DNA of 64,000 bases from Diphasiastrum complanatum (lineage: Eukaryota; Streptophyta; Lycopodiopsida; Lycopodiales; Lycopodiaceae), in contig CM055092.1 of NCBI GenBank assembly GCA_029204225.1, positions 69,446,252 to 69,510,251 on the forward strand. The letters run 5' to 3'. Position numbers and translations under genes: made by a program. Below, in pieces: positions 17,354-64,000 of the stretch. The notes beneath the pieces were generated by a model, which was given only the letters and a program-made list of their open reading frames with translations, did not search any database and had not been told where the DNA came from. Within the stretch, counting starts at the first letter, position 1. Each line of letters opens with the position of its first letter.

Positions 17354-17695
17354 CTACCTCTCATGGTTATAGCTTGACCCATTGAGCAATTTCGAGAATT
17401 CACAAACATAGTTGCTCATCCAGGTTTGAATGTCCAAAAGATGTGCATTAGACAACATTTGATTGGAATCTAATAGAACTTCCAGTCCGCTATGGATAAG
17501 ATCCGATGAATCCTGAAGGACTTCAACGCAGTCATGCAAGGTTGCAACATCTCTTATCTTCACCTTTGCAGCGTTTGTACCATCCTTAGATCCTGCATGT
17601 AGAAGTCCTGACAGATAATGCAGGTCATTCACACTCTTTAAAGTACCTCTCATGGATTTGCCTACCAAACCCACATGACTATCCTTCTGCACCAC
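17354..17695 (-). pseudogene. Pectinesterase-inhibitor (PMEI)-like fragment
   Basis: A minus-strand frame of 113 codons contains ATLHDCVEVLQDSSDLIHSG and, after about 15 residues, LLDIQTWMSNYVCEF. This matches the four-helix PMEI pattern (ALxDCxExLxDS ... DxxTWLSAALTxxxTC) found alone or at the N terminus of plant pectin methylesterases. The expected signal peptide and first helices are not evident and the frame does not continue into a pectinesterase catalytic domain. The overlapping frame at 17140-17409, rich in Arg-Gly, is probably chance. Confidence 0.55.
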
Positions 17696-17699
17696 ACTA

Positions 17700-18440
17700 T
17701 CATTTTCTATAATCTTTATCTTATTTAATAAAAGACTTTTTGATAATGAAGTTGAATAGCTTGAATATGTCAGTGGGCTGGCCTTATGATAAAGGCCTAA
17801 GATTATAGTCCATAGTTGCCCTAAGATGATTATGGCCTAAGATTGTAGTCCACAGTCCATAGTCCATAGTCTACTGCTCTTATGTTCTATACTCCGAATA
17901 CGGCTTTTTCTGAGAAGTTTTTCTATTTAATCTACATCAAAAGAGTAACTTTTGTAGTACGAACCGTCTTCAACAAATCCATACACACATATACACACTC
18001 AATCCATACACACATATACACACTCGATCCATTTCTTCCATGCCAATGAATGTGAATACATTATGTGAGGAGGTAAGATAGTGATTGTATATATCAATAG
18101 CTAATAAGACATTATAGAACAATTCCAAGCTCTCGATGGACTATTGCTATTAGTTGAGAGTGCAAGCATTTAGTCTTGGGTTTTTTCCTTCCATTTTTTA
18201 TTTTCACTCACTTGCACCTATATTTAGTTGGCCTAATTGATCGCCTACTAATTTCTCTTAGCTCTCTGGACTTTTTCTCAAATGCCAACAACTTTGTTGT
18301 CATTTTCCTTGCTCAAAGGTCTATTGGCTTTTCAGACATCAAATCTACAAGATTACAAGACAGATCTTCTCTGAGCCTCACTAAGGGTAGCACCTGTTTC
18401 AGCCCTAAACAAATTCATACTTCACGCTCTTTGAACTATT
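17700..18440. other. No gene seen
   Basis: AT-rich with small direct repeats (ccatacacacatatacacactc twice near 17980-18025; tagtccatagt near 17820-17870). The open frame from 18176 runs into the satellite and is not credible. Confidence 0.5.
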
Positions 18441-19608: not shown

Positions 19609-22436
19609 CAATTGGAATCTTTCTCTCAAGAAATCTGTGAAATAGACCACTAGTCTGCCTTTGAATTCTGCCAATCTAAAAGTTGTCAAGTACCGCTGGT
19701 ACCTATTCGTACCATTGAATTCAAATCTGCCAAGTCTGCCTACAAACTCTGGAGCCTTCCCTCTGTTAATTTTTTGGCACCCATTTATGTTGAGCTTTGG
19801 ATTACTCTTACACAGCTTACTGAAACTGAAATTCAATCCTTCAAGCTTGCTGCTTTGCATAAGAATCGCTCCTTTGATATGCCTATTGCATTTGATATTG
19901 TCATCAAGATGAGCAAATTTGAACTTACGAGATGCCCTTCTGAGCAAACCTGCGCTAGAATCAAAGGCCACTTTGAGACGGACTTTAATAGAATGAACCT
20001 AAATCAAGCTAATCACGCTATCTGGTATATGATGAACAACCTTGCCAAATTCTTCCCGATGCTTCGTTACAAAACTAACTCAATGCCTTCTTTCTTTGGC
20101 TTCATAAGCCTGCTAGAGATGTTGTCAAATTCCACCTTACCTTTTTGTACATCAGACAACACATTATTGATGCTGCCATTGAACTCTCCATTAACCCTAC
20201 GGCCACGCTGCTTGCTCACCTTGGTGATACTAAGAATATACGAGAAATTGAACGCCTGCTTAAAAAACCGAGCTTCTCTACCTTACAGGATAAATACTTC
20301 CAAAATACAAGCAGAAAGACTAGTTCCTTCAATTTAAATAATTCAAGTTCAGTCATCATAGGCAGTGTCAACACAAGTAAAGGCAATGAGGGACAGAGCA
20401 GTGGTGGAAAAGGGGATCTTCCTATCAGAAAGCTGAACTTTTACTGTGATTGATCCTTGTGCAGGAAGATATTGAAGAGCGTAGAGTATTGGGGGTCAGT
20501 GCAGTTGGTAGGCGACGACTTTTGGTGAGAAGAGATAAAGTAAAGATGTTTTTACATTTACGTTAATAGATGCTTTGAGAGTATAAACGTAAAACAATTT
20601 TATTCTGAGATTTTACTTCATTTATTTGACTACATTGATGACATTTTTGAGGAAATCATGTTTGGCTGGACCTTTTTTCTGCATTTGAAACACGAATGGT
20701 ATAAACCCTTTCAAGTTTTTTGTGATTTTGATACTGATCATATTCCACCTTGTATGTGCTCAAGTTCTAAACGTTTTAAAGAGCTTATTGACAATAATCT
20801 TGGGCATGTTATTTCTACAAATACTGGAATTATCTATAATAAGTTTTTAAGGAGCGACCTGAACAAAGGACTCAATCACATTCCGCTACGTTAATCTAAC
20901 ATTAATGAGGTCACTTTGGAACTTTATCATGGATGGTTAAAATTGGATACTTTCTTACCCTATTATCAGAATGTGGATCATGTTATTATTGTGGAACATG
21001 CTCTAGTTTGCAAGCTTACTGTAACAAACCTTTTAAAGAAGACTAGATGGCTACAAGAAATTTTTTTTACAAAGTTGGATCTTAAAAATGCTATTGATGA
21101 ATGTGACTAGATCACTACCTTCTTATACATAAACAAAATAGATAAAGCCCATCATAATCCTTGTTTCATGTGCATAAATTTTGTTAGGAACTTGGCATTG
21201 CAAAGATTATCTGGTCCAAATTTTGCTCCTATCCCAGACATTGAAAACAATAACATTGATAATGCCTTGACAATTACTAAGCATACTTTTTCCGATATAC
21301 TACCAGAGGACCTTCTTGGAAAAGAAGATTTACCTTTTCTACTTTGCACCTATAAAGCACACAAAAATACTTTTAGATGGATTACAAACGCACATGACTG
21401 TTATTTTTCAAAGGTGGCCACATTTCTTTCTGGAGCTCTTGGTATTCTGTCTCCACTCCTCGTGGAGGGGGCAAGCCTTAAGGCACATGCATACCGGAGT
21501 TACCTAAATGTGGATACCAACACATTTTGGTAGTGCGACTCATCCATTGACTTGTATCTCAACGTGCCACACAAAATCACTTCTATGTGGTCCATTGATA
21601 TCTCTAAGTGCTATGAAAACATTCCTCTTAATGGCCCAGATGGGCTTAAGACTATCATACGAACAATGATCCTACATGCTTTCAAATTCAGCAAGAACGA
21701 AAATCTTGCTTATAAGTGGAAATCTACTTATGAGGAATGTAAATGGAAATGGATTAGCAACCCAACACGAATAAGTGGACTCTTATAAACAAATTACTAC
21801 TTTGCCAATGGAATGATTTACTGATGCATTGTCAGACTCGAAAACAAAGCCTGGAGACAGGTTTGTGGCATATCCATGGGCTTTGCATGTTCCCCTACAT
21901 GGTGTAACAGGTAGTTGTCTTTTTATGAATTACAGTTTATGAAAAGACTTGCCAGACTTGGACAATTGGAATATCTCCGGGCATTTAAGAATACCTTTCG
22001 ATATATTGATGACATTTGTTTTATTGAAAATCCGGCAGCTCTTTTATTTTTGGATAAAGAACAACCACATACCAATAATAATGCTAAATGGATTTATCTT
22101 CTGGAGTATTTGACCGTCAAAAGTGAGGAAACTAATGGCAATATGGTAAACTTCATGAATAATACCACGACCTTTAATTATGAGTCTAGCATTTTTTATA
22201 TGAAAAAGTTTGATAAAAGAAAGGAATTACCTTTTCCTTGTTTGCAGTTCATTCACTTGGCATCCAATAGACCGATTTTTAACTCTTATAAGGTTATTCT
22301 TGCACAGTTTATTGCTGCTATGTATTGTTGTAGCAATCAGACACAAAAAAATGGCTTTATGAAAGGAAGACTCTACGGAATAGTAACAAAAATTTCCTAC
22401 ACAACATGTTTTTTGGTCTTTTCACTTTACCAATAA
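19609..22436 (+). pseudogene. Penelope-like retroelement reverse transcriptase, decayed
   Basis: One reading path covers about 900 codons. 19609-20100 is one frame, with one frameshift near 20100. The rest to 22436 is a single frame broken only by stops at 20451, 20526, 20541, 20892, 21108, 21531, 21786, 21822 and 21912. Motifs in order: CMC (20751-20759); HVISTNTGIIYNKFLR (from 20805); YKAHKNTFRWITNA (about 21350, RT motif 2 region); DISKCYENIPL (21597-21629, motif A); GISMGFACSPTWCN (21867-21908, motif B); RYIDDI (21999-22016, catalytic motif C); then KRKELPFPCLQFIHLASNRP. This order, with RYIDD instead of YxDD and the HV-T-x-I-xN-xLR block, fits Penelope-like elements, possibly the Chlamys/Naiad branch. 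No GIY-YIG endonuclease is visible, so it is either 5' truncated or endonuclease-less. A poly-repeat follows at 22516. Confidence 0.72.
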
Positions 22437-29790: not shown

Positions 29791-29858
29791 AGGTGTACAA
29801 CCAAAAATTTACAGTTTTGTGGTAAGAATAAATTTTGTGATCCAGACTCATCTATCCA

Positions 29859-30782
29859 GTGATTGCAACTCTAAGAGAGAGTGTTCTTAATGAGTCAAGC
29901 AAATTGGAAAGTGCTGACAACTATGCAGTTTGGAAATTCAAATTGAAGGACATTTTGATGGAAAAGGAGCTATGGGAGATCGTGACAGGTGAAGAGACAA
30001 GGCCAATGATTGAAGAAGATCAGCGGGCATTTGATAGGAGAAGATGGAAAGCCCAAAATGTCATCAATTTATCAGTTAGAGATGCAATTATTCCCTATAT
30101 TTCAGATTCAGAAGGACCAAAAGAAACGTGGGATACATTGAAGGCATTGTTTGAAACGACAAATACATCTCGAATACTATTTTTAAAGACAAAGTTGCAT
30201 ACATTGCGGATGGATGATGGTGCAACTATTGCCGATCACATACTGAAGATCAAAGAGATCCGTGATCAATTAGCAGCAGTTGGAGAGCGAGTACAAGATC
30301 ATGAGATCGTGCAATTGACATTGAATAGTCTGAGTGAGTCACATCAGATGTTTGTGACGAGTATAGCCACAAGAGAAAATCTTCCAACCTATGAAGAACT
30401 AGGTGGATTGCTTTTGCAAGAAGAGCAACGTCAAGAGAACTTGAATCATCGTAACAGGAGCTATGATCAAGCTCTTGCAGTTCGAGGACGAGGTGGAAGA
30501 TTTGGCCGTGGAAAGTATCAATCGAGAGGAGGAAACTCAAGCCGAGGATCATTTCAACAATTTCATGAGTAAGTCAATGATAGTTCGAATCGAGGTAATT
30601 GGAATCGAAGGTGCTTTTGGTGCAACGATTGCAAGAATACTATCTTCCACAAAAGAGGATAATCGATCAATAAGAATCGATATTGAGCATAAGACCGAGG
30701 TCAAGGACGCGGCTATTCAAGACAAAATAAACCTGGAAATTGTGGGTATTGCAACAAACATGGTCACTGGGAGCGTGAATGC
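29859..30782 (+). pseudogene. Copia element 1: gag with zinc knuckle, decayed
   Basis: UBN2-type gag. It begins with a GTG where an ATG would be expected, then LESADNYAVWKFKLKDIL, KETWDTLKALFETTNTSRI and LPTYEELGGLLLQEEQR, then an Arg-Gly-rich stretch (RGRGGRFGRGKY). The frame stops at 30570 and again at 30660, 30684 and 30690, yet continues in the same frame to a CX2CX4HX4C knuckle CGYCNKHGHWEREC (30741-30782). The capsid-like protein would package element RNA; the start and stop changes make this copy non-functional. Confidence 0.9.
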
Positions 30783-32080
30783 TTCAAGAAACAGAAGGAG
30801 ATGGAACAAAGAAAAGACAAATGGCAAGCGGGAAATTATGCTGATCAACATCAATTTGATGACTATTATTATGAAGACAATTATACTGATCAACATCAAT
30901 ACGATGATGATCAATATGAAGATGACACAGGTGAGAGTTCAAAATTGTTAATGACAAGTGATGAAGCCAAGGAAACCTGGTACATTGATAGTGGTGCATC
31001 CAAGCACATGACTTCAAGGAAAGAGTGGTTTTCAGAACTCAAGAAAACTAACAATGGTGATGAAGTTGGAAAAGCTGATGGCAAATTGCTATATGTTAAA
31101 GGAGTTGGAGTGGTACCAGTGAAGTTAGCCAACGGGAAAATAAAGCATATAAACAATGTGCAATATGTACCTGGCTTAGCTAACAATCTACTATCTATTG
31201 GGACGATGGCTGATCAACAACTCAAGGTTGAGTTTGACAGTGACAAATGTCTTGTCAAAGATATCAAGAATCACTACAAAGTGATTGCTATAGGAGCTAG
31301 AGTCAACGAGAATCGACTCTACAAATTGAATGCAAGATCTTTTACTCAAGCTATGGTAAGCATTGTTGATAGTCGAAGTGATTTTTGGCATCAAAGGTTT
31401 GGTCATATCAGTGCTCAAAGCTTGCAAATTCTTAAAAGAGGTATTCTAGTTGTTGGATTGCCTGACATCTCTTTTGAAGGAAAAATTTGTGAGGGTTGCA
31501 TTTTGGAAAAACAACATAGAGAGAGATTTCCCAAAGATGGAGCAAAAAGAGCCAATGGCATTCTTGATCTTGTTCATAGTGATATATGTGTGGACCAATA
31601 CAAACTAGGTCCATTAGTGGTTGTTACTATTTCATCACATTCATTGATGACTATAGTAGACATATCTGGATTTATTTCATAAGCAAGAAATCTGATGCTT
31701 TTGCCAAGTTTAGAGAGTTCAAGGCTCTAGTTAAAAAACAATCTGGTTGTTATATTAAGACCCTCAGATCAGATGGTGGCAGTGAGTATTTTTCAACAGA
31801 GTTTATAAACTTTGCAAGGATCAGGGGATCAAGAGACAAACCACTACACCCTATTCACCACAATAGAAAGGAGTTGCAGAACGGAAAAACAGATCCATTG
31901 TGGAGATGACTAGGGCAATGCTTAAGAGCAAGGGTTTGCCAAATACTTTTTGGGCAGAAGCATGCAACACAACTACTCATATCTTGAATCGGTGTCCTAC
32001 GAAGGCCGTGGAGGGTAAGACACCTTACGAAGCTTTTACTGGAAAGAAACCTAATGTCTCATTTACGAATATTTGGTTGT
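30783..32080 (+). pseudogene. Copia element 1: protease and integrase, frameshifted
   Basis: Protease motif TWYIDSGASKHMTS (about 30978), then GAG-pre-integrase DFWHQRFGHISAQSL and the CEGC zinc motif. Integrase begins at LVHSDI, shifts frame near 31600, continues TFIDDYSRHIWIYF and LRSDGGSEYFS, shifts again near 31810, then gives TTTPYSPQ, a TAG at 31864, KGVAERKNRSIVEM and the end of the core. Catalytic D, D and E positions are all still present, in three different frames. Another shift lies near 32070. The order protease-integrase-RT identifies Ty1/copia. Confidence 0.92.
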
Positions 32081-33928
32081 AATGCTTACGCTCATGTACC
32101 TCATGAAAAACGAAAGAAGCTGGATGCAAAAGCTGTTAAGTCTATTTTCCTTGGATATGATGAAAGAGCCAAGGCATACAAGATGTATGACACAGATGCA
32201 CAAAAGATCGTGATTTCCAGAGATGCTACTTTTGATGAGATGGGTCAAAATGACCAAATAAAATTGACAATTGATCCCTTTGATGATAAAGCTAAAATGC
32301 AAGTGAAGAAAGAAGTTGGTGTCGATATGGAAGAGCCAATGGAAAAAGACAGGGTCAATAATGAGATTCCTAGGAGAGTGCCTAAGTGGTACTTGTTAGT
32401 AACAAGTGATGCTAATAAAGGAGATACTCCCGAATCAAGTGAGCAGGAAGAGCTTAGAAGATCAAGTAGAAATCGAAAACCTCCTGCAAGATTAGAGATG
32501 AATCTAGCCCTAATGGGTTCTGTGCTCAAGGCTCAGGAACCAAAAACTTTTGATAAAGCAAAGGAGCACAAGGAGTGGCGTGAAGCTATGGAAACAGAAA
32601 TGGAAGCTATATCGAAAAATAGGACGTGGAACTTGGTTGAGCTACCTGTTGGTAAAACGCCTATCACTTGCAAATGGATATACAAGATCAAATATGGAGC
32701 TAATGGGCAACTCAACAAGTATAAAGCACGGTTGGTTGCGAGAGAATTTGAGCAACAGAAAGGTATTGATTTTGAAGAAACCTTCGCACCCGCAGCTAAG
32801 ATGGTAACTATACGTTCTAGCATTGCTATTGCTGCTTTCTATGGTTGGAAGATCTAGCAAATGGACGTTAAATCTGCTTTTCTTAATGGAGTGCTGGATG
32901 AAGAGGTGTACTTAGTACAACCTCAAGGATTTGTTGAGCCAGGGAGAGAGCATCTCGTTTGTAAGCTCAACAAATCCATTTATGGATTGAAGCAAGCACC
33001 ACGGGTGTGATACTCTTGCATTGATGAACACTTCAAGCGAAGGGGAATGATAAAGAGTGATGCTGGTCCTAATCTTTACATTCTAAGGCAAGATTCAGAT
33101 ATAGTGTTCATTGTGTTGTACGTGGATGATTTGATTATTACAAGAAGTAATGAGAGCTTAATTGATGAAATAAAATGAGATCTTTCCAAAGCTTTTGACA
33201 TAAGTGATCTAGGATTGATGCACTATTGTCTTGGCATTGAAGTATGGCAAAAGGAAGACATGGTCTTTCTTACACAAAGCAAATATGCACGAGATTTGCT
33301 TTATAAGTTCAATATGCAAGATTGTAAGCCTTTGAGTACACCTATGGATGTCAACATGAAGCTTACTGCATATGATGAATCTGAGAAAGTGGATGCTTAT
33401 TTGTATAGACAGCTGGTGGGTAGTTTGATTTATTTGACACACACACGACCTGATATTTCTTATGCTGTTGGTGTTGTTAGTCAATTTATGCAAGATCCTA
33501 GTCAAGCACACCGTAAGTATGCTAAACGTATTCATAGATACATTCGAGGGACATTGAATTTTGGTTTGAAGTATGATCAACCTGAAACGCCAATGTTGGT
33601 AGGTTATACAAATGCCGATTGGGCAGATAATATTGATGACAGAAGATCTACAAGTGGTCATACATTCAGTTATGGTACAACTGCAATTTCATGGAGCAGC
33701 AAAAAGCAACCTACAGTAGCCTTATCATCGACAGAAGCTAGATATCGAGCACTCATCAATGCTACACAAGAAGCGGTATGGTTACGAAGATTGCTTGTGG
33801 ATTTAGGTCAACCACAGGTGGATGCGACTACTATATCTTGCGATGATCAAAGTTGCATTCACCTTGCCAAAAATCCAGTTTTACATGCTCGAACCAAGCA
33901 CATCGAAATACACTACCATTTTGTTTGA
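32081..33928 (+). pseudogene. Copia element 1: reverse transcriptase and RNase H, three nonsense codons
   Basis: A single frame holds the integrase C terminus (FGCNAYAHVP), the RT (TCKWIYKIKYGANGQ, then a TAG at 32855 directly before [22 protein letters not shown], then TGA at 33008, LYVDDLIIT as catalytic YVDD, TGA at 33176) and RNase H (GYTNADWADNIDDRRSTSG, VALSSTEARYRAL, ARTKHIEIHYHFV). Family consensus gives Gln before MDVK and Trp after APRx, so these two stops are C-to-T type changes. The remaining text is well conserved, so the element decayed recently. Confidence 0.93.
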
Positions 33929-55345: not shown

Positions 55346-56298
55346 ATGAGTAGTTTGGAGATGGCGTACGATAACAGGTTCGCAGGGTTCCTAGAGCACC
55401 TAGTGCCTCTGAATGGCAACACCGTGGCCACCATCTTTGATGCGATCCTCAACTCATATCGCCACATGGGAGAAGCTAGAGCTCTTCTTTGCTCCGGAGC
55501 TGTTTTGAAGAATGTTGATGACTCCTGTGTATGTATCTCCCTTCCTGCAATAAGGTGTTACTAGTCTATTGCAGAGAAACTGTCTCACTGCTTTCTTCTT
55601 CATGGATGCAGATTGTTTGTTATGAGCAGTGGAAAAGGAGCACCAATTTTGACTCTCTGACATCCACCACGGTAAGTCTTTTATACTGCCATATCTGTCG
55701 TACGAGCGATGGAAAATGAGCACTAATTTTGACTCTCTAACATCGACCACGGTAAGTCCTAGATACTGCCATATCTGTAATACATTTTGATCCCGAGATA
55801 GGTTGCTGAGGATAGCTGCTGATGGTTTTGTATGCTATGAATGGTGATCAGCTAGCTCCAGTGGAGGCATCTCTGCGGGCTGTCGCAGCGATCGATCTGT
55901 TCATGAATGATGTGAGCTATGACGAATCAAGGTGCAATCAATCCGTGACCTTTCGAAAAGGAACTCCATTTTACATCACGGTCTATAGCGTCCATACGAG
56001 TGATGATCAGCAGAAGTTTTTGGCCCATATTCAAAGGTTTATGAGCAATCAGTTTGCACTTGCGAATGAGATGGTGGCTTACACCATACACAAATCTCTT
56101 TCAACTGATGCAGTCACCAACACCAAGTTGGTCCCACGGCTTGCTGTTGTTCAGCAGTGGAGTAGCCTAGAGGCAGCTAGCAAGAACGCTACTTTCTGGA
56201 CAGAAACAGATGAAGCTGCGCAGGGAGTATGCAGTGTAGATTACTCTGGCATATACGAGACTATATACATTGATCAGCAAGATACCTGGCTGTTTTGA
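55346..56298 (+). CDS. Unrecognised three-exon gene, 241 residues
   Basis: Exon 1 55346-55528 (MSSLEMAYDNRFAGFLEHLV ... ends DDSC before gtatgt), exon 2 55612-55671 (acceptor gatgcag; IVCYEQWKRSTNFDSLTSTT; donor gtaagt), exon 3 55816-56298 (after gaggatag; LLMVLYAMNGDQLAPVEASL ... DQQDTWLF, TGA). All junctions are phase 0 and no stop interrupts the chain, so it looks functional. Base composition is more GC-rich than its surroundings. Predicted soluble: no signal peptide or membrane span. I recognise no family. The exon 3 acceptor is the weakest junction. Exon 2 is followed by a near-copy of itself (55690-55751) ending at a second gtaagt; this could be an alternative exon or a dead duplicate. 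Confidence 0.6.
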
Positions 56299-56299
56299 A

Positions 56300-57239
56300 T
56301 CAAGAAACTATAATTTTTCAGTTATATTGGTGGAAAGGGGCGGAATTTGATGACCTCAAAAAGTTCTAAAAAAGAACATTGAAATAGCAGAATGTGCATG
56401 CGCCCTCGCGTGTGAAAGGGATTCATTTTGTTGCAAATAAAATAGTGAAGCATCTACATCAGGCAAAATGATGATGGTGAAAATGTTGTATGCCTGGATC
56501 CGTTGAGTAAAATAACAAGAAATCTTATGAAACTAGAAATGGCACAAGACCCATTTTTTTGTTTTGTGAACTTACAATTTTTTGAAATTCAAGTAATTTT
56601 TGAATCCTTAATTTTTTTTTGTGCTTATAATTTTTTGAAATTCAATTAATTTTTGAATCCTAAAGTTAGAAATGAATTTATTATTTTGCAAGCTTGTATA
56701 TTTTGCAAATATTTAAGAATTTTACACTAAAATGGCTAAAGAAAAAAAAATCATTTGTGTGCAATTTGTTATTATGAAAAATAGTTGTTAAATTAAGCAA
56801 GTAATTGTAAAATTTTAAAAATTATTATTTCTAGTAAAAAACAACAAAAAAACATTTTAACATAAATTTGATAACCTATTTATAATTTGATATTTGTATT
56901 TTAAGAATCAAGTAAACTAAACAAATCTAATATTCAAAAAAATATGCTAAACTTATAACAAACATTTTGTATTTTAAGAATCAAGTAAACTAAACAAATC
57001 TAGTATTCAAAAAGATATGCTAAATTTCTAACAAATATTATTTAACAATAAATTTACCAAAAACATATTTAAAAAATCTAAGAAATAAACACTTTGTACA
57101 TAAATACAATATCTTTCGAATAAAAGAGATTTTTTTAAAAATAAAATTTTCATACAATCAAAAATTCTCAATCATATCATTTGGATCTGGAGAAGATACC
57201 CTTTCAACCCTTATGTCTGTTGGAGGTGCTGTCTTGCGT
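56300..57239. other. No gene seen; AT-rich with a tandem duplication
   Basis: Very AT-rich. Two copies of a block with gtattttaagaatcaagtaa and actaaacaaatct at about 56890-56960 and 56967-57035. Confidence 0.6.
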
Positions 57240-57819
57240 CCTAAATAACAATTTTTTCAATAACATTATAGCTTTGCTCAACCACCTCGGCCAATTCTCC
57301 TTCATTACCAAATTTCGTCCTCAGATGGACCCAACTTACCAATTTCCTGAAACTCATCAGACAAAACTGAAATACCAGCTAGCCTCATCTTAACAAAACT
57401 TGCTAAACTCTCATTTAATTCTATAGCCTCATCTTAACAAAACTTGCTAAACTCTCATTTAATTCTATAGCCGCAACATGTCTGCCCTTTTGGACAGCAC
57501 ATGCACTAGTAGTGCACTAGTAGTGCCACTACCACTAAATAAATCTAAAATCCAATTTGCGAGATGAGAAAACATTTCAATTAACTTATCTACAAGCTAT
57601 TGTGGCTTTTGATATGGACAAGCCACAGAACTAGTCATCGAATTTTTTAGTTTTTTTGTCATTGCTGGAAAATCCAAATGATTTACAAAATCTGTGTTCT
57701 TTGCAGTGTTGTAGTGCAACATGGATCTCATTCCATCGGTAGAGAAGTAAGCGATGCTGAGATATTTGATCTCATTACAAAGACGTGCACCACCCGAATT
57801 GCGCACATTTGGTTTGTGC
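57240..57819 (-). pseudogene. DNA N4/N6-type methyltransferase, C-terminal exon relic
   Basis: Minus strand. A retained acceptor (ttgattgttgtag) at 57820 opens a frame: HKPNVRNSGGARLCNEIKYL, YFSTDGMRSMLHYN, CPYQKPQ, a TAG, LVDKLIEMFSHL, then the SAM-binding motif WILDLFSGSGTTSA (about 57515-57550). An 11-bp tandem duplication (actactagtgc twice) shifts the frame; beyond it the text is ACAVQKGRHVAAIELNESLA. P-x-xLVxxLIxxFS ... LDLFSGSGTT ... GRxxxAIELNE is the C-terminal half of the N6_N4_Mtase family (prokaryotic-type amino-methyltransferases). The N-terminal (D/S)PP(Y/W) catalytic motif is not in the window. A 44-bp tandem duplication (57381-57468) adds more damage. Not functional here. Confidence 0.75.
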
Positions 57820-57829
57820 CTACAACAAT

Positions 57830-58387
57830 CAAATAACTAAAACAAAGAGCCAGAGAGCGCAAAAAGAGCAAATGAATTGGCAAAGGTGAGTTATGCCATG
57901 TCCGTGCTTCTTAAATACTATACAGGAACCGAGTGGGTGGCATCTTTCAAGTGTTAAGTTCAACGGAACAAGGTGAGTGCCATACTTTAAGTCTATATGG
58001 TGGCATTTCCTATCATGCTCGTCACTAAAATTATAACGCTGATAACATTTTCGTTTTAGCTCGGATTGGGACGATGTAAAAAGAAAAAAATTTCATAATG
58101 TTTTCAACTGTGCATTGTAAGTACGGAATCGATTTCAACGTTGACTAAAAAAATTCATTTTTTTTGTTTGGGTTTGGCCCTTAACTTTGACCCGCTAAAA
58201 TGTTTGGCAAAACCACGAACATTAGTTTAAGAAAATGACAAAGCAAATCTTATGGTTATCACGAGTCGGTTCTTAAAATTTTCTCCCAATAGAAACATTG
58301 GTCTAAAATTTTATATTAACTTGCGCACAATTTTCCCTCTCTCGTAATTTTGCCCTAAATTCTCCAAACTAATTAAGGACATGGTCT
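57830..58387. other. No gene seen between the methyltransferase relic and the copia insertion
   Basis: AT-rich; if the methyltransferase gene continued upstream this would be its intron. Ends with TSD ggtct (58383-58387). Confidence 0.4.
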
Positions 58388-59079
58388 TGTAAAAATTTCA
58401 CAATTCTTGCTTGACCAATTTTGGTCATATGGCTTGTAAATTGTATTATGGTCATGTTGTGGCTTGTCACACGTGCCAAATAGCATAGGATACTCTTTGT
58501 AAGTCTCATTCCTAACCTAGCATAGGAGTGGCACCTTTGGAGTGAGTCCAAATAGTGCTTTGATAAGCTAGAGAGAAAATAAGAGCTAAAAATAGCATGT
58601 TTTTCAATGTTTTGGGATCTCGAGATCTTGACCCCAAGTTAGGGTGGATCCAATGACCTATTAGATTAGATGTTAGGATTAGGGTATGATAAGTTCAGAG
58701 GCCCTAATATGCTCAGATCTGAGCTTGAAAAGTATAAATGTATGATGAGATTTCCATCCAAAAATCAAGAAAAATCGAGTTTTTCCACTTCCATCATAAT
58801 TGTCTGTTGGTGACGAGTTCTAGCTATTGAGTGTTTTTATGCATTAATTGCTTGGATTGGAAGGTGCTGAACTTGTTTACAGGTCTGAGAAGCTTGCTGT
58901 ACTTTACTTTGGTTCATTTGATCAAATCTATGTGCCTAATGTGGAGTTAAATGCCAAATTTGCTAGTTTTGGTAACTAGTCTTGATTCTAGCTCATAGTT
59001 TGGATCTAGATCTTTTATTTGTGCATCCTCCATCACTTTTAGGATTGATTGGAATTGAATTTGCTGTAAAATTTTGTCA
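58388..59079 (+). mobile_element. Copia element 2: 5' LTR
   Basis: 692 bp, TGTAAAAATT...TTTTGTCA, about 20 substitutions and three small indels from the 3' LTR (about 3 percent). TSD ggtct on both sides. PBS tggtatcagagcc at 59080-59092. Confidence 0.96.
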
Positions 59080-59883
59080 TGGTATCAGAGCCTAATCAAA
59101 AGTGAGCTTTAGATTTGATTTTCTCAAGCTTAGATCCTAGATTTGAGTAGTATTGGCTTTGTCCTTGCTACTAGTTGCTAATCTAGTAATTGTACCTTCA
59201 AATTTGGTTTCATTTTAGTGATAATAGATCAAAGGGAACTTTTTTTGCTGAGTTATAGCTGCAAGAACCGAGATTGACCCATTTCCATTCAACCAAACCA
59301 AATTAGAAAGTTCTTATGAGCTGAATCTTGGAGTACATGTCTCCTAGTAGAGATTTTCATAAGGATTTGAATGCCACCACTCTTTAGAAGTTTGGATCAT
59401 CCATTTGAGAGCTTAATTAGGTCGTTATTAGGCTTCTTAAGGTCCTAAAATACACCTTTTAGGTTCAGATCAAGTGTTTTGATGAGTTTTCATCTAGAAA
59501 TGCAAAACTAGTGAAAATTGTGTTTTTATTCTACTCGGTTTTGGATAGGTTTGTGATTGAATATGTCAATGTGATTCAACCTAAATTTAAGAGGCTTTAT
59601 TTATAAGACATTTGTGTGTTATAAAGTGCTTTTGGTTCAGTATAGGTGGATTCACCCTTCTTGTGAAGTCGAGATCAAGGAGGAGACTAGTTTGATCAAA
59701 TCTATAGTAAGTTTGGATCTAGTTTGGATCTTGAAGATAGATCAAGCTCAAGATCACCTTAGATCTTGTTGAGAAATCAGAGAGTGATTCATCTCAGGTC
59801 CCAAAGAGAGTGGGATAGCTAGTAGTGATCATATCTTGTACAATCTATCTTGTTTCTTTGAATTTATCTCCTTATCATTGAAG

Positions 59884-60720
59884 ATGGCATCCATAAGTGC
59901 CTATCTTTTGGATTCTAGTGATAGATTGACCTCTTCAAATTATTCAATTTGGAAGCTAAGAATGGAATCCATCCTTATCATGCAAGATTTGATGGATATT
60001 GTGAATGGAGAAGAAGATGAGCCAATCCATTCACAAGAAGCAACTAAATACAAGAGAAGGTGCAAGCTTGCACTCCATTGTATTAAGACGAATGTTGCAA
60101 ATGATTTGCTCAAAGAAGTAGGAGCTTGTACCTCAGCCCAAGAGGCTTGGGAGACTCTTCAAAAGATCTATGAGTCCAAGAATACCTCAAGGTTACTTTC
60201 TCTCAAGAGCCAAGTTCTTCAATGCTTCCAAGGGAGGAGTGAGAGTGGACATCAATCTGTTTTGAGAGTAAAAGATTTGAACAAAGAGCTTACTTATGTT
60301 GGTGAACCTATTAAAGAGAGTGAGCTTGTGCAAATAGTTTTGAATGGCTTATGTAGTGATTTTACTAAACTTGTCCAAAGCTATGCCATCATGGGAAACT
60401 TGCCTACAATTGAAGACCTTTAAAGTGTGTTGATGGCCGAGGAGAGTAAGAAGGCTCATATCAAATCAAGGATGGAGAGGCTCTCCATCAATGATGATGA
60501 TGACAAAGCCTTATTTTTCAAGAGCAAAGGCAAAGCAAAGAGCAAGGGAGGAGCATTAAAAAAGGAGCAAGCAAAGGATGGAGATCAAGGAGAATCTACA
60601 TCATCATCATCACAAGTCAAGCCCAAGATGGACAAATCAAAGATCAAGTGCTACTATTGTAGCAAGATGGGGCACTATGTCTTGGAATGCTTCAAGAGGA
60701 AGCAAGATCAAAGCCAAGCC
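59884..60720 (+). pseudogene. Copia element 2: gag with zinc knuckle
   Basis: Starts ATG at 59884 (MASISAYLLDSSDRLTSSNY, SIWKLRMESILIMQDLMDIV), UBN2 gag (AQEAWETLQKIYESKNTSRL, LNGLCSDFTKLVQSYAIMG), a TAA at 60421 in an otherwise continuous frame, then knuckle CYYCSKMGHYVLEC (60649-60690). Only one stop, so gag is close to intact. Confidence 0.92.
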
Positions 60721-61482
60721 AACATTGGACAAGAGGAGGAAGAGAGCTATCATGAGGACTCACTCATGATGTCAACCTTTTCATCATCAAATGTCAAAGG
60801 TGAAGATCCTTGGTGGATAGATAGTGGGGCTAGCTCCCACATGTCGGGTAAAAGGGAGTATTTTTCTCAACTCACACCTTAGGACCTATAAAGTCCATTT
60901 TTACAGCAAATGATCATGAATGTAAAGTTGAAGGTGTGGGATCCATTCTCTTATGCTTAGGATCCTCCAAGAAGACTAAGATAGATGGTGTTCTCTTCAT
61001 TCCTAGCATCACTAAGAATTTGCTTAGTGTTGGCCAACTTTTAGATCATGGTTTCATTGTGGAGTTCTCTACTAATGTATGCAACATCAAGAAGAATGGG
61101 AAGATCATAGCAAGAGGAAGAAGGTTTGGGAGGTTGTTTAAGCTTGATGCTTTTGTTGATCCTAACCAACTTTGTGATAGTAGCCAAGGAGGACAAGATG
61201 GCTACAAATGATTTGTGCCACAAGAGGCTTGGTCACATCAACACCAAGTCTATGGAAGTCATGTGCAAGGAGGAGCTTACTCTAGGCCTTCCAATATCCA
61301 TGGAAAAAGAGGAAAAGGTTTGTGAAGCATGTTCTTTGGCTAAAGCACATAGGTTGCCTTTCTCTAACATTGATAATTCAACAACCTACCAGAGACAAAG
61401 CTTGGATCTTGAAGACAACCTTTATGGAGCTCTCACTACATTTGAGAACTTGGAGCTCAAATCATATTCTTATCATGATGAG
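60721..61482 (+). pseudogene. Copia element 2: protease and GAG-pre-integrase; rest of pol deleted
   Basis: Protease DPWWIDSGASSHMSG, frame lost at 60880, then VLFIPSITKNLLSVGQLLDH in a second frame and LCHKRLGHINTKSMEVM and CEACSLAKAHRLPF in a third. Integrase core, RT and RNase H are absent: the sequence passes within 110 bp to the polypurine tract. An internal deletion derivative, movable only in trans. Confidence 0.9.
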
Positions 61483-61578
61483 TGATCATAGTCACTCAAC
61501 AAAGCAAGAACCTGGAAGTTATATTGTTTTTATCCATGTATTGATTATTGATCCAGGATAGTCTCATCAAGCTAAATT

Positions 61579-62280
61579 GTGAGGAGGAGTGTTAAAATTT
61601 CACAATTCTAGCTTGACCAATTTTGGTCATATGGCTTGTAAATTGTATTATGGTCATGTTGTGGCTTGTCACACGTGCCAAATAGCATAGGATACTCTTT
61701 GTAAGTCTCATTCCTAACCTAGCATAGGAGTGGCACCTTTAGAGTGAGTCCAAATAGTGCTTTGATAAGCTAGAGAGAAAATAGGAGCTAAAAATAGCAT
61801 GTTTTTCATTGTTTTGGGATCTCGAGATTTTGACCCCAAGTTAGGGTGGATCCAATGACCTATTAGGTTAGATGTTAGGGTTAGGGTATGATAAGTTCAG
61901 AGGTGCTCTAATATGCTCAGATCTGAGCTTGAAAAGTATAAATGTATGATGGGATTTCCATCCAAAAATCAAGAGAAATCGAGTTTTTCCACTTCTATCA
62001 TCATTGTCTTTTGGTGGCGAGTTCTAGCTATTGGATGTGAGTGTTTTTATGCATTAATTTCTTGGATTGGAAGGTTCTGAACTTGTTTACAGGTCTGAGA
62101 AGCTTGCTGTACTTTACTTTGGTTCATTTGATCAAATCTATGTGCCTAATGTGGAGTTAAATGCCAAATTTGCTAGTTTTGGTAACTAGTCTTGATTCTA
62201 GCTCATAATTTGGATCTAGATCTTTTATTTGTGCATGCTCCATCACTTTTAGGATTGATTGGGATTGTAAAATTTTGTCA
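61579..62280 (+). mobile_element. Copia element 2: polypurine tract and 3' LTR
   Basis: gtgaggaggag (61579-61589) then LTR 61590-62280 (691 bp) and TSD ggtct at 62281-62285. Whole element 3893 bp. It splits a region whose left side carries the methyltransferase relic and right side the DUF7869-like relic. Confidence 0.96.
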
Positions 62281-62469
62281 GGTCTCTTGTTTAATTTTAC
62301 TTAGACCATAATATCAATTTAAAACCCTAAATTCAAAAGTCTGCAAAAGCATGGTTGACACATTTTGTGAACGTGCATGTTGAGAAACTCCCAAATTCTT
62401 TATATTTTCACCTTCAAGACAATTTTTTGAAATTGAAAATATTCATGATGTACAAAATTTTGCAATGTC

Positions 62470-63770
62470 GAAGAATGTTCAGCATCTAAGTTATTCTTAT
62501 TTTGTGAAACTGTGGAAGAGAGATTTTGGTCTGGTAAAAATCCCAAAAAAATCCAGAATGTCTGTTTGTACCTTCTGCGAGCAGTTGATAGCACTCATAG
62601 AACAAGCAAAAATTTCTCAGGAAAAAGGTATTTGACACTTACTAAATTTTGTCTTTTTATTTCAACCACTCAGTTTGAATTTCTTTTACTCTCACTTACT
62701 AAATCATTTTTGTATTTGATTTTTTAGACAACATTACAATGTCACTTCAAATTTACAGAGTGCAACCAAAAGCTTGCCAAACATAGGAAAAAGTGTTTGG
62801 AGTTTTCTCAAAAATACTTGGGTCTTGTAATTGATGGGATGGACCAAAAGAAAACGCTACTGCCACATTTTGTGAGGGTGCCAAAAAATCTAAACGAAGT
62901 GGATTTTATCCAAGTTCATTTGGTTGGAGCTCTTATATTCAATGTCACCTTGTAGTTTAAAGTGTATTTCAATTATCCCAATGTTCGAAATGATCCCAAA
63001 TTGACCATTACCATAATCAATAAAATAATAGTTGAATTTGGCAATAGTCTTTTTGTGATTCTTTACTTGGAACTTGATAACACTACCAGAGAAAATAAAA
63101 ATCAAACAATGTTGCCATATTTGTCCATGTTGGTTGCTTTAAAAATTTTCAAAAAAATCAACATAGGATTTTTACTGGTGGGTCATACTCACGATCAAAT
63201 CGACCAAATGTTTAGCTATTTTTCCAAAAAGCTGAGACGCAAATTTTTTTTTTCTTTGCCAATACTACTGAGTATTATCGAGGAGTCATAAACCCCTAGA
63301 TCAAATGTGTTTTTACTACAATGCACATTTGATTTTAGAGACTACATCAAGACATCGGAAGAACATTGCACTGCACCAACAAATGATATTAGTTTTAAAC
63401 ATCAGTTCAAAATTGAAAATGATATTGGTGGCATCAGTGGGAAAAGCAATTTTCAAACTCTACGGAATGGTTACCATCTGAAGGAGTTTGTTTTTTTACG
63501 AAGTGTGCCCTCTTCTCAAGTTAAGCTTGTATCTTTGTGTCATCTAACTTCTATTATGCTTCTTGGTTTCCAAGGGGAGGTTCGAACCTGGGACCAAAGA
63601 AACTTTGGATGCCAAGCTAACCAGTTGAGCCAACCCCATTGGGTCTAACTTCTATTATGGAAGAGCAAAAGGCTCAAAGAGAACGTCGTCCAGTTGATCC
63701 ATTTGCGGCTTTAAACTTTTTGGAAACGACCATTCAAGCAACATACCAATTTTTTGATGAGTTTGATTGA
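62470..63770 (+). pseudogene. DUF7869-like protein (DDE/RNase-H-fold, transposase type), two exons, interrupted
   Basis: Exon with SYSYFVKLWKRDFGLVKIPK, KSRMSVCTFCEQL (zinc-like CxxC), donor at 62628, 100-nt intron, acceptor at 62727. Then KLAKHRKKCLEFSQKYLGLV, IDGMDQKKTLLPHFVR (62830-), YLELDNTTRENKNQ (about 63067-63105), GFLLVGHTHDQIDQMFSYFS (about 63169-63228). The D...D...D/E spacing and the DNxxRENKN / VGHTHxxIDQxFS signatures are those of a large eukaryotic family that I know as DUF7869, thought to be transposon-derived. One frame is kept from 62830 to 63558 with only TAG 62953 and TAA 63289; the frame resumes after the 85-bp insertion at 63559 and meets TGA at 63768. The 5' end is unclear. 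Confidence 0.72.
63543..63659 (-). mobile_element. tRNA-derived insertion (SINE head) of 85 bp with 16-bp target duplication
   Basis: Insert 63559-63643. On the minus strand it reads GGGGTTGGCTCAACTGGTTA (polymerase III A box TGGCNNAACTGG) and later GGTTCGAACCTCCCC (B box GGTTCGAANC). The target duplication tctaacttctattatg is perfect at 63543-63558 and 63644-63659. It breaks the DUF7869-like frame (101 bp added in total). Very short for a SINE; a retroposed tRNA-related sequence or truncated SINE. Confidence 0.85.
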
Positions 63771-64000
63771 CATTGGTGGGTGTTTTTTTGAAGAGCAAAA
63801 GTTAAGTTTTGTTAACTTGGGAGATGCAAACTCGTCTGAGGAGTTTCACTGGTCGTTTATATTTTCAACTTCAACAACGACAGTTGTCTATTGTTGCCCA
63901 ACAGACTAAGTATTTGACCGTTGTGCAGAACGAAGAACATGAGATTTATTTGGGTCCTAGAAAAAGTCGACAAACTGTAAATGCTACCAAGGCTAAATGG
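63771..64000 (+). pseudogene. Continuation of the DUF7869-like relic, frame lost
   Basis: Stop-dense in every frame but with coding-like shreds; runs off the window edge. Confidence 0.3.

Follow-up and report, generated by a model that had tools for sequence, protein, structure and literature searches.

Near the right end of a 64,000-nucleotide stretch of Diphasiastrum complanatum DNA (contig CM055092.1, positions 69,446,252 to 69,510,251; hereafter the window), a minus-strand relic of a permuted, bacterial-type amino-methyltransferase lies head to head with a plus-strand relic encoding a DUF7869 domain, and we find that these two open reading frames (ORFs) are parts of one DNA transposon family. 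Taken as a whole, the data are best explained by a single transposon with a DUF7869 transposase and the methyltransferase as its cargo, a reading to which we assign a probability of roughly 0.82. The window copy itself is an old one that was internally deleted and later hit by a copia retrotransposon and by an insert resembling a short interspersed nuclear element (SINE).

Element ends and genome-wide pairing

Profile searches of the host genome (1,744,706,496 bases on 5,176 contigs scanned) returned 2,953 first-look candidates for the DUF7869 profile PF25273 and 1,605 for the methyltransferase profile PF01555, of which 150 each were scored. All 150 DUF7869 candidates matched PF25273 and all 150 methyltransferase candidates exceeded the curated PF01555 cut-off of 26.7 bits in a single frame. 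Both are large repeat families in this genome, which for a bacterial-type methyltransferase in a plant is unusual in itself. Around DUF7869 matches we took 36 locus records (L001-L036, the first eight with only 1.5 kb of flank), which represent 35 distinct places since L007 equals L028, and added two adjoining stretches, L037 and L038. Two composite loci resulted: locus A (L037 plus L029, C9:32,532,500-32,543,499) and locus B (L032 plus L038 reversed, on contig C2).

The most complete copy read lies in locus A at C9:32,534,197-32,542,455 (A:1698 to A:9956; 8,259 bp). It starts with AACATGATGACC, finishes with GTCATCGTGTT and has TTAA on either side, and its terminal inverted repeats (TIRs; left AACATGATGAC, right in reverse complement AACACGATGAC) match at 10 of 11 bases, with the 11-bp consensus AACAYGATGAC. 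The same two ends stand 4.7 kb apart in L025 and its near-identical twin L026, where a deletion joins A:3744 to A:7753 (read in L025) and the target-site duplication (TSD) is TATC; TSDs of 4 bp are thus found in two independent insertions. The break at L025:3738 had been considered as a transposon boundary between the two genes, until locus A revealed the internal deletion instead. Alignments to locus A stop at A:1698 on the left in L025, L026 and L012, and at A:9945-9959 on the right in L025, L026, L017, L036, L027, L031 and locus B; the loci with earlier right stops (L013 at 9799, L035 at 9603, L030 at 9508, L012 at 9173, L034 at 9037, L033 at 8621 and L023 at 8371) are divergent, truncated or rearranged. 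Furthermore, locus B runs colinearly with A from A:3374 to A:9956, its four main blocks being 84-94% identical, and has different flanks. The shared ends, the TSDs and the colinear copies therefore place both genes in one mobile unit, as the preliminary description of the window had proposed, and the shared TIRs and TSD that it expected around both ORFs are present in one copy, locus A.

The same association emerges genome-wide. When 150 methyltransferase places were compared with 205 merged DUF7869 places (of several thousand candidates), 13 pairs no more than 12 kb apart emerged; in 11 the two genes diverge, and in 8 of these 11 their starts are separated by 5.5-6.8 kb. As a control, the methyltransferase places were displaced at random, by up to 5 Mb on C1-C24 or 20 kb on small contigs and with random strand, which gave a mean of 0.23 divergent pairs and a maximum of 3 in 5,000 trials, an excess of about 50-fold; the L026 twin is one of the 11 divergent pairs, hence at most 10 are independent. 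The list drawn up with the PF01555 profile yields 7 pairs, 6 of them divergent (control mean 0.26, maximum 3 in 2,000), one of the six being a C4185 pair that resembles a second record of the C12 pair, with the same scores. Finally, the right terminus (25 bases, at most 2 mismatches) has 732 matches in the genome and its reversed pattern none, and comparison of the first 100 of these 732 places (C1 to part of C8) with the 90 methyltransferase places on C1-C8 reveals 10 pairs within 14 kb, 8 of them arranged as predicted (with 7 different right ends), against a control mean of 0.15 and maximum of 3. The divergent co-occurrence of other copies, suggested earlier as a check, is accordingly seen far above chance, and the divergent layout stands, whereas the short spacing in the window turns out not to be the native one.

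These data bear directly on whether two unrelated elements simply adjoin by chance or nesting, in which case the divergent layout would be meaningless. Such an origin could draw on the great abundance of both families and on rearranged copies such as L012, with its genes in tandem; set against the excess of divergent pairs, most at near-constant spacing, against one copy whose TIRs and TSD enclose both genes, and against the colinearity of A and B from the methyltransferase N-half through the DUF7869 gene, it is highly improbable.

Genes, selection and palindrome arrays

The methyltransferase exons of locus A lie on the minus strand from about A:3744 to A:2502 and, read through with X, score 45.6 bits against PF01555, compared with 13.6 bits for a single ORF piece alone. 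IADIPYGF occupies the motif IV position and DLFSSSGTTSA constitutes motif I of the S-adenosylmethionine (SAM) site, with the motif-IV-like site N-terminal of motif I in the permuted order, an order of halves shared by L025 and L012. The textbook catalytic motif of the N6_N4_Mtase family is (D/N/S)PP(Y/F/W). The upstream catalytic exon that the preliminary description expected in an intact copy is indeed present elsewhere in the genome, but in place of its (D/S)PP(Y/W) we read DIPY in A and L025, NIPY in B and DISY in L012, all four copies being damaged. Additional minus-strand ORFs up to A:5919, retained in B, probably belong to the methyltransferase gene. Relatives of the methyltransferase or DUF7869 pieces were absent from scans of viral contigs, and a phage tblastn search retrieved generic methyltransferases only (best E 2e-3).

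The DUF7869 gene, on the plus strand, opens with a Ser-rich N-terminal part, continues with a Cys-containing exon and then the domain itself, and closes with a C-terminal part. PF25273 was the only profile over cut-off when its pieces were scanned in Pfam, with no transposase domain of a known superfamily (piggyBac, Kolobok, Sola, Chapaev, Ginger and others). As the sole other long gene seen inside the ends, it very probably encodes the transposase. The alternative of a separate, third mover, with both genes as cargo, would be in keeping with the lack of structural support for an RNase H-like fold and with a Ser-rich N-terminal part and multi-exon upstream gene that are incompletely resolved; yet between the ends of A we saw no further long gene, and the DN..REN.N and GHTH..ID columns, acidic residues included, are conserved over diverse DUF7869 copies and would, by analogy, suit a metal-dependent DDE-type core, so that we regard a third mover as quite improbable.

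Comparison of substitution rates indicates that the methyltransferase was not drifting freely: its amino-acid sequence was clearly kept by purifying selection before decay. Between the window and A, the ratio of nonsynonymous to synonymous rates (dN/dS) over 71 codons is 0.11 (dS 1.91, dN 0.21), a rough figure as dS is near saturation; the upstream region gives 0.20 between A and B over 167 codons, and the DUF7869 gene gives 0.33, 0.48, 0.58 and 0.63. Younger methyltransferase pairs yield 0.32, 0.36 and 0.71 in the N-half and 0.52 and 0.53 in the middle part. The pattern is compatible with a protein on which transposing lineages depend and which degenerates once a copy is dead.

A further feature of the element is a 15-bp palindrome, CTATGCTNAGCATAG, which with at most 2 substitutions occurs 17 times in the element of locus A, against an average of 0.02 in shuffles, and not at all in its flanks. 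Twelve copies form an array at A:6,179-6,669 with a spacing of mostly 40-42 bp; of the other five, three are found immediately before the methyltransferase catalytic exon and two close to the DUF7869 gene. Counts elsewhere are 10 in B, 12 in L027, 14 in L034, 9 in L036, 6 in L031 and 3 each in L012 and L013, and none in the deleted copy L025. L030 has 9, most of them in an array with a 28-bp period, in noncoding DNA that cannot be aligned to A; among the 14 comparison loci the palindrome is absent from the stretches read in the other 13. The only match in the 64-kb window, at 31,351, falls outside the transposon copy. That the palindrome outlived the sequence around it between A and L030 suggests a putative binding site. 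The deletion junction at L025:3738 itself falls within a palindrome copy (CTATG|GAGCC), hinting at a role of the palindrome in the breakage.

Several observations weigh against a transposon with a working transposase and cargo. No copy among those read is intact: A lacks one DUF7869 exon and has stops, and B lacks the methyltransferase C-half. The TSDs come from only two independent insertions, too few for a target preference. Of the 150 methyltransferase places, 137 have no DUF7869 partner among the 205 listed of several thousand candidates, a count that decides neither way. Conversely, methyltransferase sequence occurs in only 6 of the 36 DUF7869 locus records, or 4 independent places: the near-identical pairs L011/L012 and L025/L026, together with L029 and L032. 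A divergent arrangement is seen in L025, L026, L029 and L032, a tandem and rearranged one in L011 and L012; in L012 (299-4313) the methyltransferase half and its left end stand in tandem to the DUF7869 gene, one exon of which is inverted. L033 and L035, which belong to the closer subfamilies, have no palindromes in the stretches read. AlphaFold models of DUF7869 had mean pLDDT (per-residue confidence) values of 42.4 and 41.3 in two runs, unusable for a fold. A ParB identity for the region upstream of the methyltransferase, the middle part of which resembles a ParB N-terminal domain by eye only, was dropped after searches of Pfam, PHROGs and PDB sequences gave no match to ParB.

The remaining adverse points concern the methyltransferase itself. 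In all four copies read the first Pro of motif IV is Ile, and the C part of younger pairs gives dN/dS values of 0.92 and 0.98, the middle plus C part of L025 against L012 a value of 1.06. Taken alone, the C-part values would fit a passenger, that is, a host or bacterial gene captured in the manner of Pack-type elements and useless to the transposon, for which the unusual motif IV and the several copies deleted in the methyltransferase also speak. The low ratios between the window and A, in the N-half and in the upstream region argue instead for a protein kept in transposing lineages, and we consider a mere passenger unlikely.

The DUF7869 family also extends beyond the copies described above. 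A second abundant subfamily with other flanking DNA (L009-L010, L015-L016, L019-L022 and L028) contains neither methyltransferase nor palindromes within the stretches read. Furthermore, L033 (2369-7695) has two DUF7869 domains of equal score 4 kb apart, inverted and divergent as in a palindromic duplication, and a similar pair is found on C1806.

The deleted copy in the window

The preliminary description had read a C-terminal N6_N4_Mtase half on the minus strand, which the profile match bears out, although the relic is longer than stated there (57,836-57,308). Its first piece alone reaches 16.8 bits against PF01555, under the cut-off, and the preceding 79-aa ORF has no PF01555 match in Pfam on its own; when translation is continued further upstream (QKP-stop-LVDKLIEMFSHLANWILDLFSG...), with X placed at one stop and one frameshift, the score is 44.1 bits (E 3.1e-11, profile positions 135-216 of 221). 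WILDLFSGSGTTSA lies at 57,513-57,554 and GRHVAAIELNE, in another frame, at 57,454-57,486, both on the minus strand, and the relic is broken by a TAG stop, by 44 bp duplicated exactly in tandem and, as judged by eye, by an 11-bp tandem repeat. The relic is 55-62% identical to those in L025, L026, L011 and L012 and 59.7% identical to that of locus A. From this relic to the DUF7869 ORF the minus strand has no DPPY/SPPY-type motif, the sole PPY being an MPPY at 58,003 surrounded by stops; the window copy, its N-half deleted, has no catalytic motif.

On the opposite strand, the DUF7869-like ORF reported to face the methyltransferase is confirmed by PF25273, with 118.5 bits (cut-off 26) for its 111-aa ORF alone (E 3.5e-34) and 127.7 bits for the two pieces joined (E 5.2e-37, profile positions 1-136 of 192). 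As had also been described, a copia element splits the pair: its long terminal repeats (LTRs; 58,388-59,079 and 61,590-62,280, limits by eye) are 97, 98 and 93% alike in three blocks, its primer site is TGGTATCAGAGC (by eye), and GGTCT flanks it on both sides. With the copia element removed the spacing is about 0.65 kb, within the 0.6-0.7 kb estimated previously. The coordinates of these features are collected in Table 1.

Table 1. Features of the transposon copy and its later insertions in the window (positions within the 64,000-nucleotide stretch).
Feature	Position	Strand	Evidence
Probable left terminus, AACAAGAAATC..., AGAAATGGCACAAGACCCATTTTTTT	56514..56560	.	Global alignment to left end of C9 element (L037:1698 on)
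Amino-methyltransferase relic, permuted, C-terminal part, motif I DLFSGSGTT	57308..57836	-	PF01555 44.1 bits with X
Internal-deletion junction between methyltransferase and DNA upstream of DUF7869 gene	57834..57836	.	L030 rightwards; locus A leftwards from about 57,842
DNA upstream of DUF7869 gene	57834..58387	+	77.7% to L030 over window 57,834-58,176
TSD of copia, GGTCT, left copy	58383..58387	.	Read directly; right copy 62,281-62,285, perfect 5 bp
Copia retrotransposon, later insertion, not part of transposon	58388..62280	+	LTR repeats; gag PF14223 E 2.3e-21
DUF7869-gene exon upstream of domain, CTFC zinc-like motif	62384..62632	+	tblastn, L011-L014, L025-L027, L030-L032, L034-L036
DUF7869 domain, probable transposase, stops at 62,953 and 63,289	62728..63531	+	PF25273 E 3.5e-34 / 5.2e-37
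tRNA-like SINE-sized insertion (63,559-63,643) inside DUF7869 gene	63543..63659 including TSD	-	16-bp exact repeat
DUF7869-gene C-terminal part, continues beyond window end	63647..64000	+	89.2% to L030:5624-5985

The probable left end is supported by an alignment score of 303; 50 single-base shuffles, which as a control are lenient for AT-rich DNA, gave a mean of 212 (sd 12.9, maximum 241). The TIR there is decayed. A left end at about 56,345 (AATTTGATGACC) had been considered earlier, and the alignment moved it to about 56,514. Locus A matches the window over 56,612-57,842 (59%, E 1.9e-59, partly in AT-rich noncoding DNA) and over 62,767-64,000 (65%, E 1.1e-132); this alignment reaches A:9074, 882 bases before the right end of A, and the right end of the window copy lies beyond the window. 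L030, among the two nearest relatives of the window copy in the loci read (88% over 62,767-63,553), aligns from 57,834 rightwards to the window end, flanking the copia element on both sides (82.9% over 58,333-58,401, the final bases of that block lying within the copia element). Since locus A stops and L030 starts at about 57,834, the copy has an internal deletion of roughly 4 kb, in which the methyltransferase N-half, the upstream domain and the palindrome array were lost; it is of the same kind as the L025 deletion and a separate event, and because of it the 0.65-kb spacing is secondary. The SINE-like insert is bounded by the TSD TCTAACTTCTATTATG (63,543-63,558 and 63,644-63,659) and has a B-box-like GGTTCGAACCT (by eye); ARAGORN found no tRNA in it.

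A 160-aa ORF at 55816-56298, with a sub-threshold Pfam match only, stops some 215 bp short of the transposon's probable left terminus. Elsewhere in the window, ORFs at 21111-22436 with FRYIDD-like motifs resemble a Penelope-type reverse transcriptase by eye, with no match in Pfam; a second, fuller copia element occupies 29841-33928, with Pol_BBD and gag_pre-integrs matched in 30,693-31,679; and a relic at 17357-17836 resembles plant invertase/pectin methylesterase inhibitor at 24.2 bits, below the cut-off of 29, in keeping with a plant host.

Proposed function and precedents

In the mechanism that we propose, the DUF7869 protein would probably cut and paste the element and the methyltransferase would probably be working cargo. 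The enzyme could be directed to the element by the palindrome array, bound by either the upstream domain or the DUF7869 protein, and marking of the element's own DNA might then allow it to escape or modulate host silencing, or serve to regulate the shared divergent control region. We put forward palindrome-guided self-marking tentatively, at somewhat less than even odds. Instead, the enzyme might work outward, marking host or competitor DNA or RNA, or might serve the element's replication timing. Prokaryotic relatives have many targets, and nothing found here links the enzyme to a target site; on the other side, the dense palindrome array within the element would provide a ready putative self-recognition signal, and we consider outward action somewhat unlikely.

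VANDAL elements, which belong to the MuDR group of plant transposons, have clustered motifs and a protein that is not known to be a methyltransferase. They offer a model for the palindrome array, in that their own protein controls their own silencing (PMC12730594) in a sequence-specific manner. The TET/JBP elements of fungi are DNA transposons with an enzyme that acts on DNA methylation (PMC12730594) and share with the present element TIRs, TSDs, the position of such an enzyme beside the transposase and a gene that is not mobile alone; they differ in acting on the methyl group of 5-methylcytosine and in belonging to several known superfamilies, whereas here an amino-methyltransferase accompanies DUF7869 in a plant. 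Mariner elements of giant viruses likewise encode a methyltransferase (PMC3627910), with another transposase, Cyt_C5 and Methyltransf_26 domains, an extra endonuclease and a viral setting; we saw no endonuclease in the lycopod element. Finally, N4CMT of bdelloid rotifers is a permuted bacterial-type N6_N4_Mtase that is linked to transposons in a eukaryote; it belongs to the host, bears a chromodomain, and marks transposons and contributes to their silencing (PMC8885841), whereas the enzyme described here is transposon-encoded.

Transposons carrying epigenetic enzymes thus have precedents, and this enzyme, its DUF7869 partner and the plant host are found in neither the TET/JBP nor the giant-virus Mariner case. 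Within the literature searched, which left subscription papers and Repbase outside, no plant transposon with an amino-methyltransferase appeared among the entries listed and DUF7869 was not found. The element is possibly a new superfamily. The fullest form of our proposal, a plant transposon family, possibly of an undescribed superfamily, with a DUF7869 transposase, its own bacterial-type amino-methyltransferase and a palindromic address label, would have the element place a non-plant mark, N4-methylcytosine (4mC) or N6-methyladenine (6mA), on itself and so control or evade host silencing; we hold it to be doubtful at present. Functional writers of 4mC and 6mA in land plants are contested; an N4-cytosine methyltransferase of Marchantia has been worked on, as have methylases of DIRS elements. 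If the proposal is true, the thousands of candidate places in this genome would give a concrete source of such a mark and a place to look for it. DUF7869, an abundant domain without a function in Pfam, would gain a role as a transposase, and the family would add a new case of a transposon-borne epigenetic enzyme, perhaps one that acts as a counter-measure to silencing.

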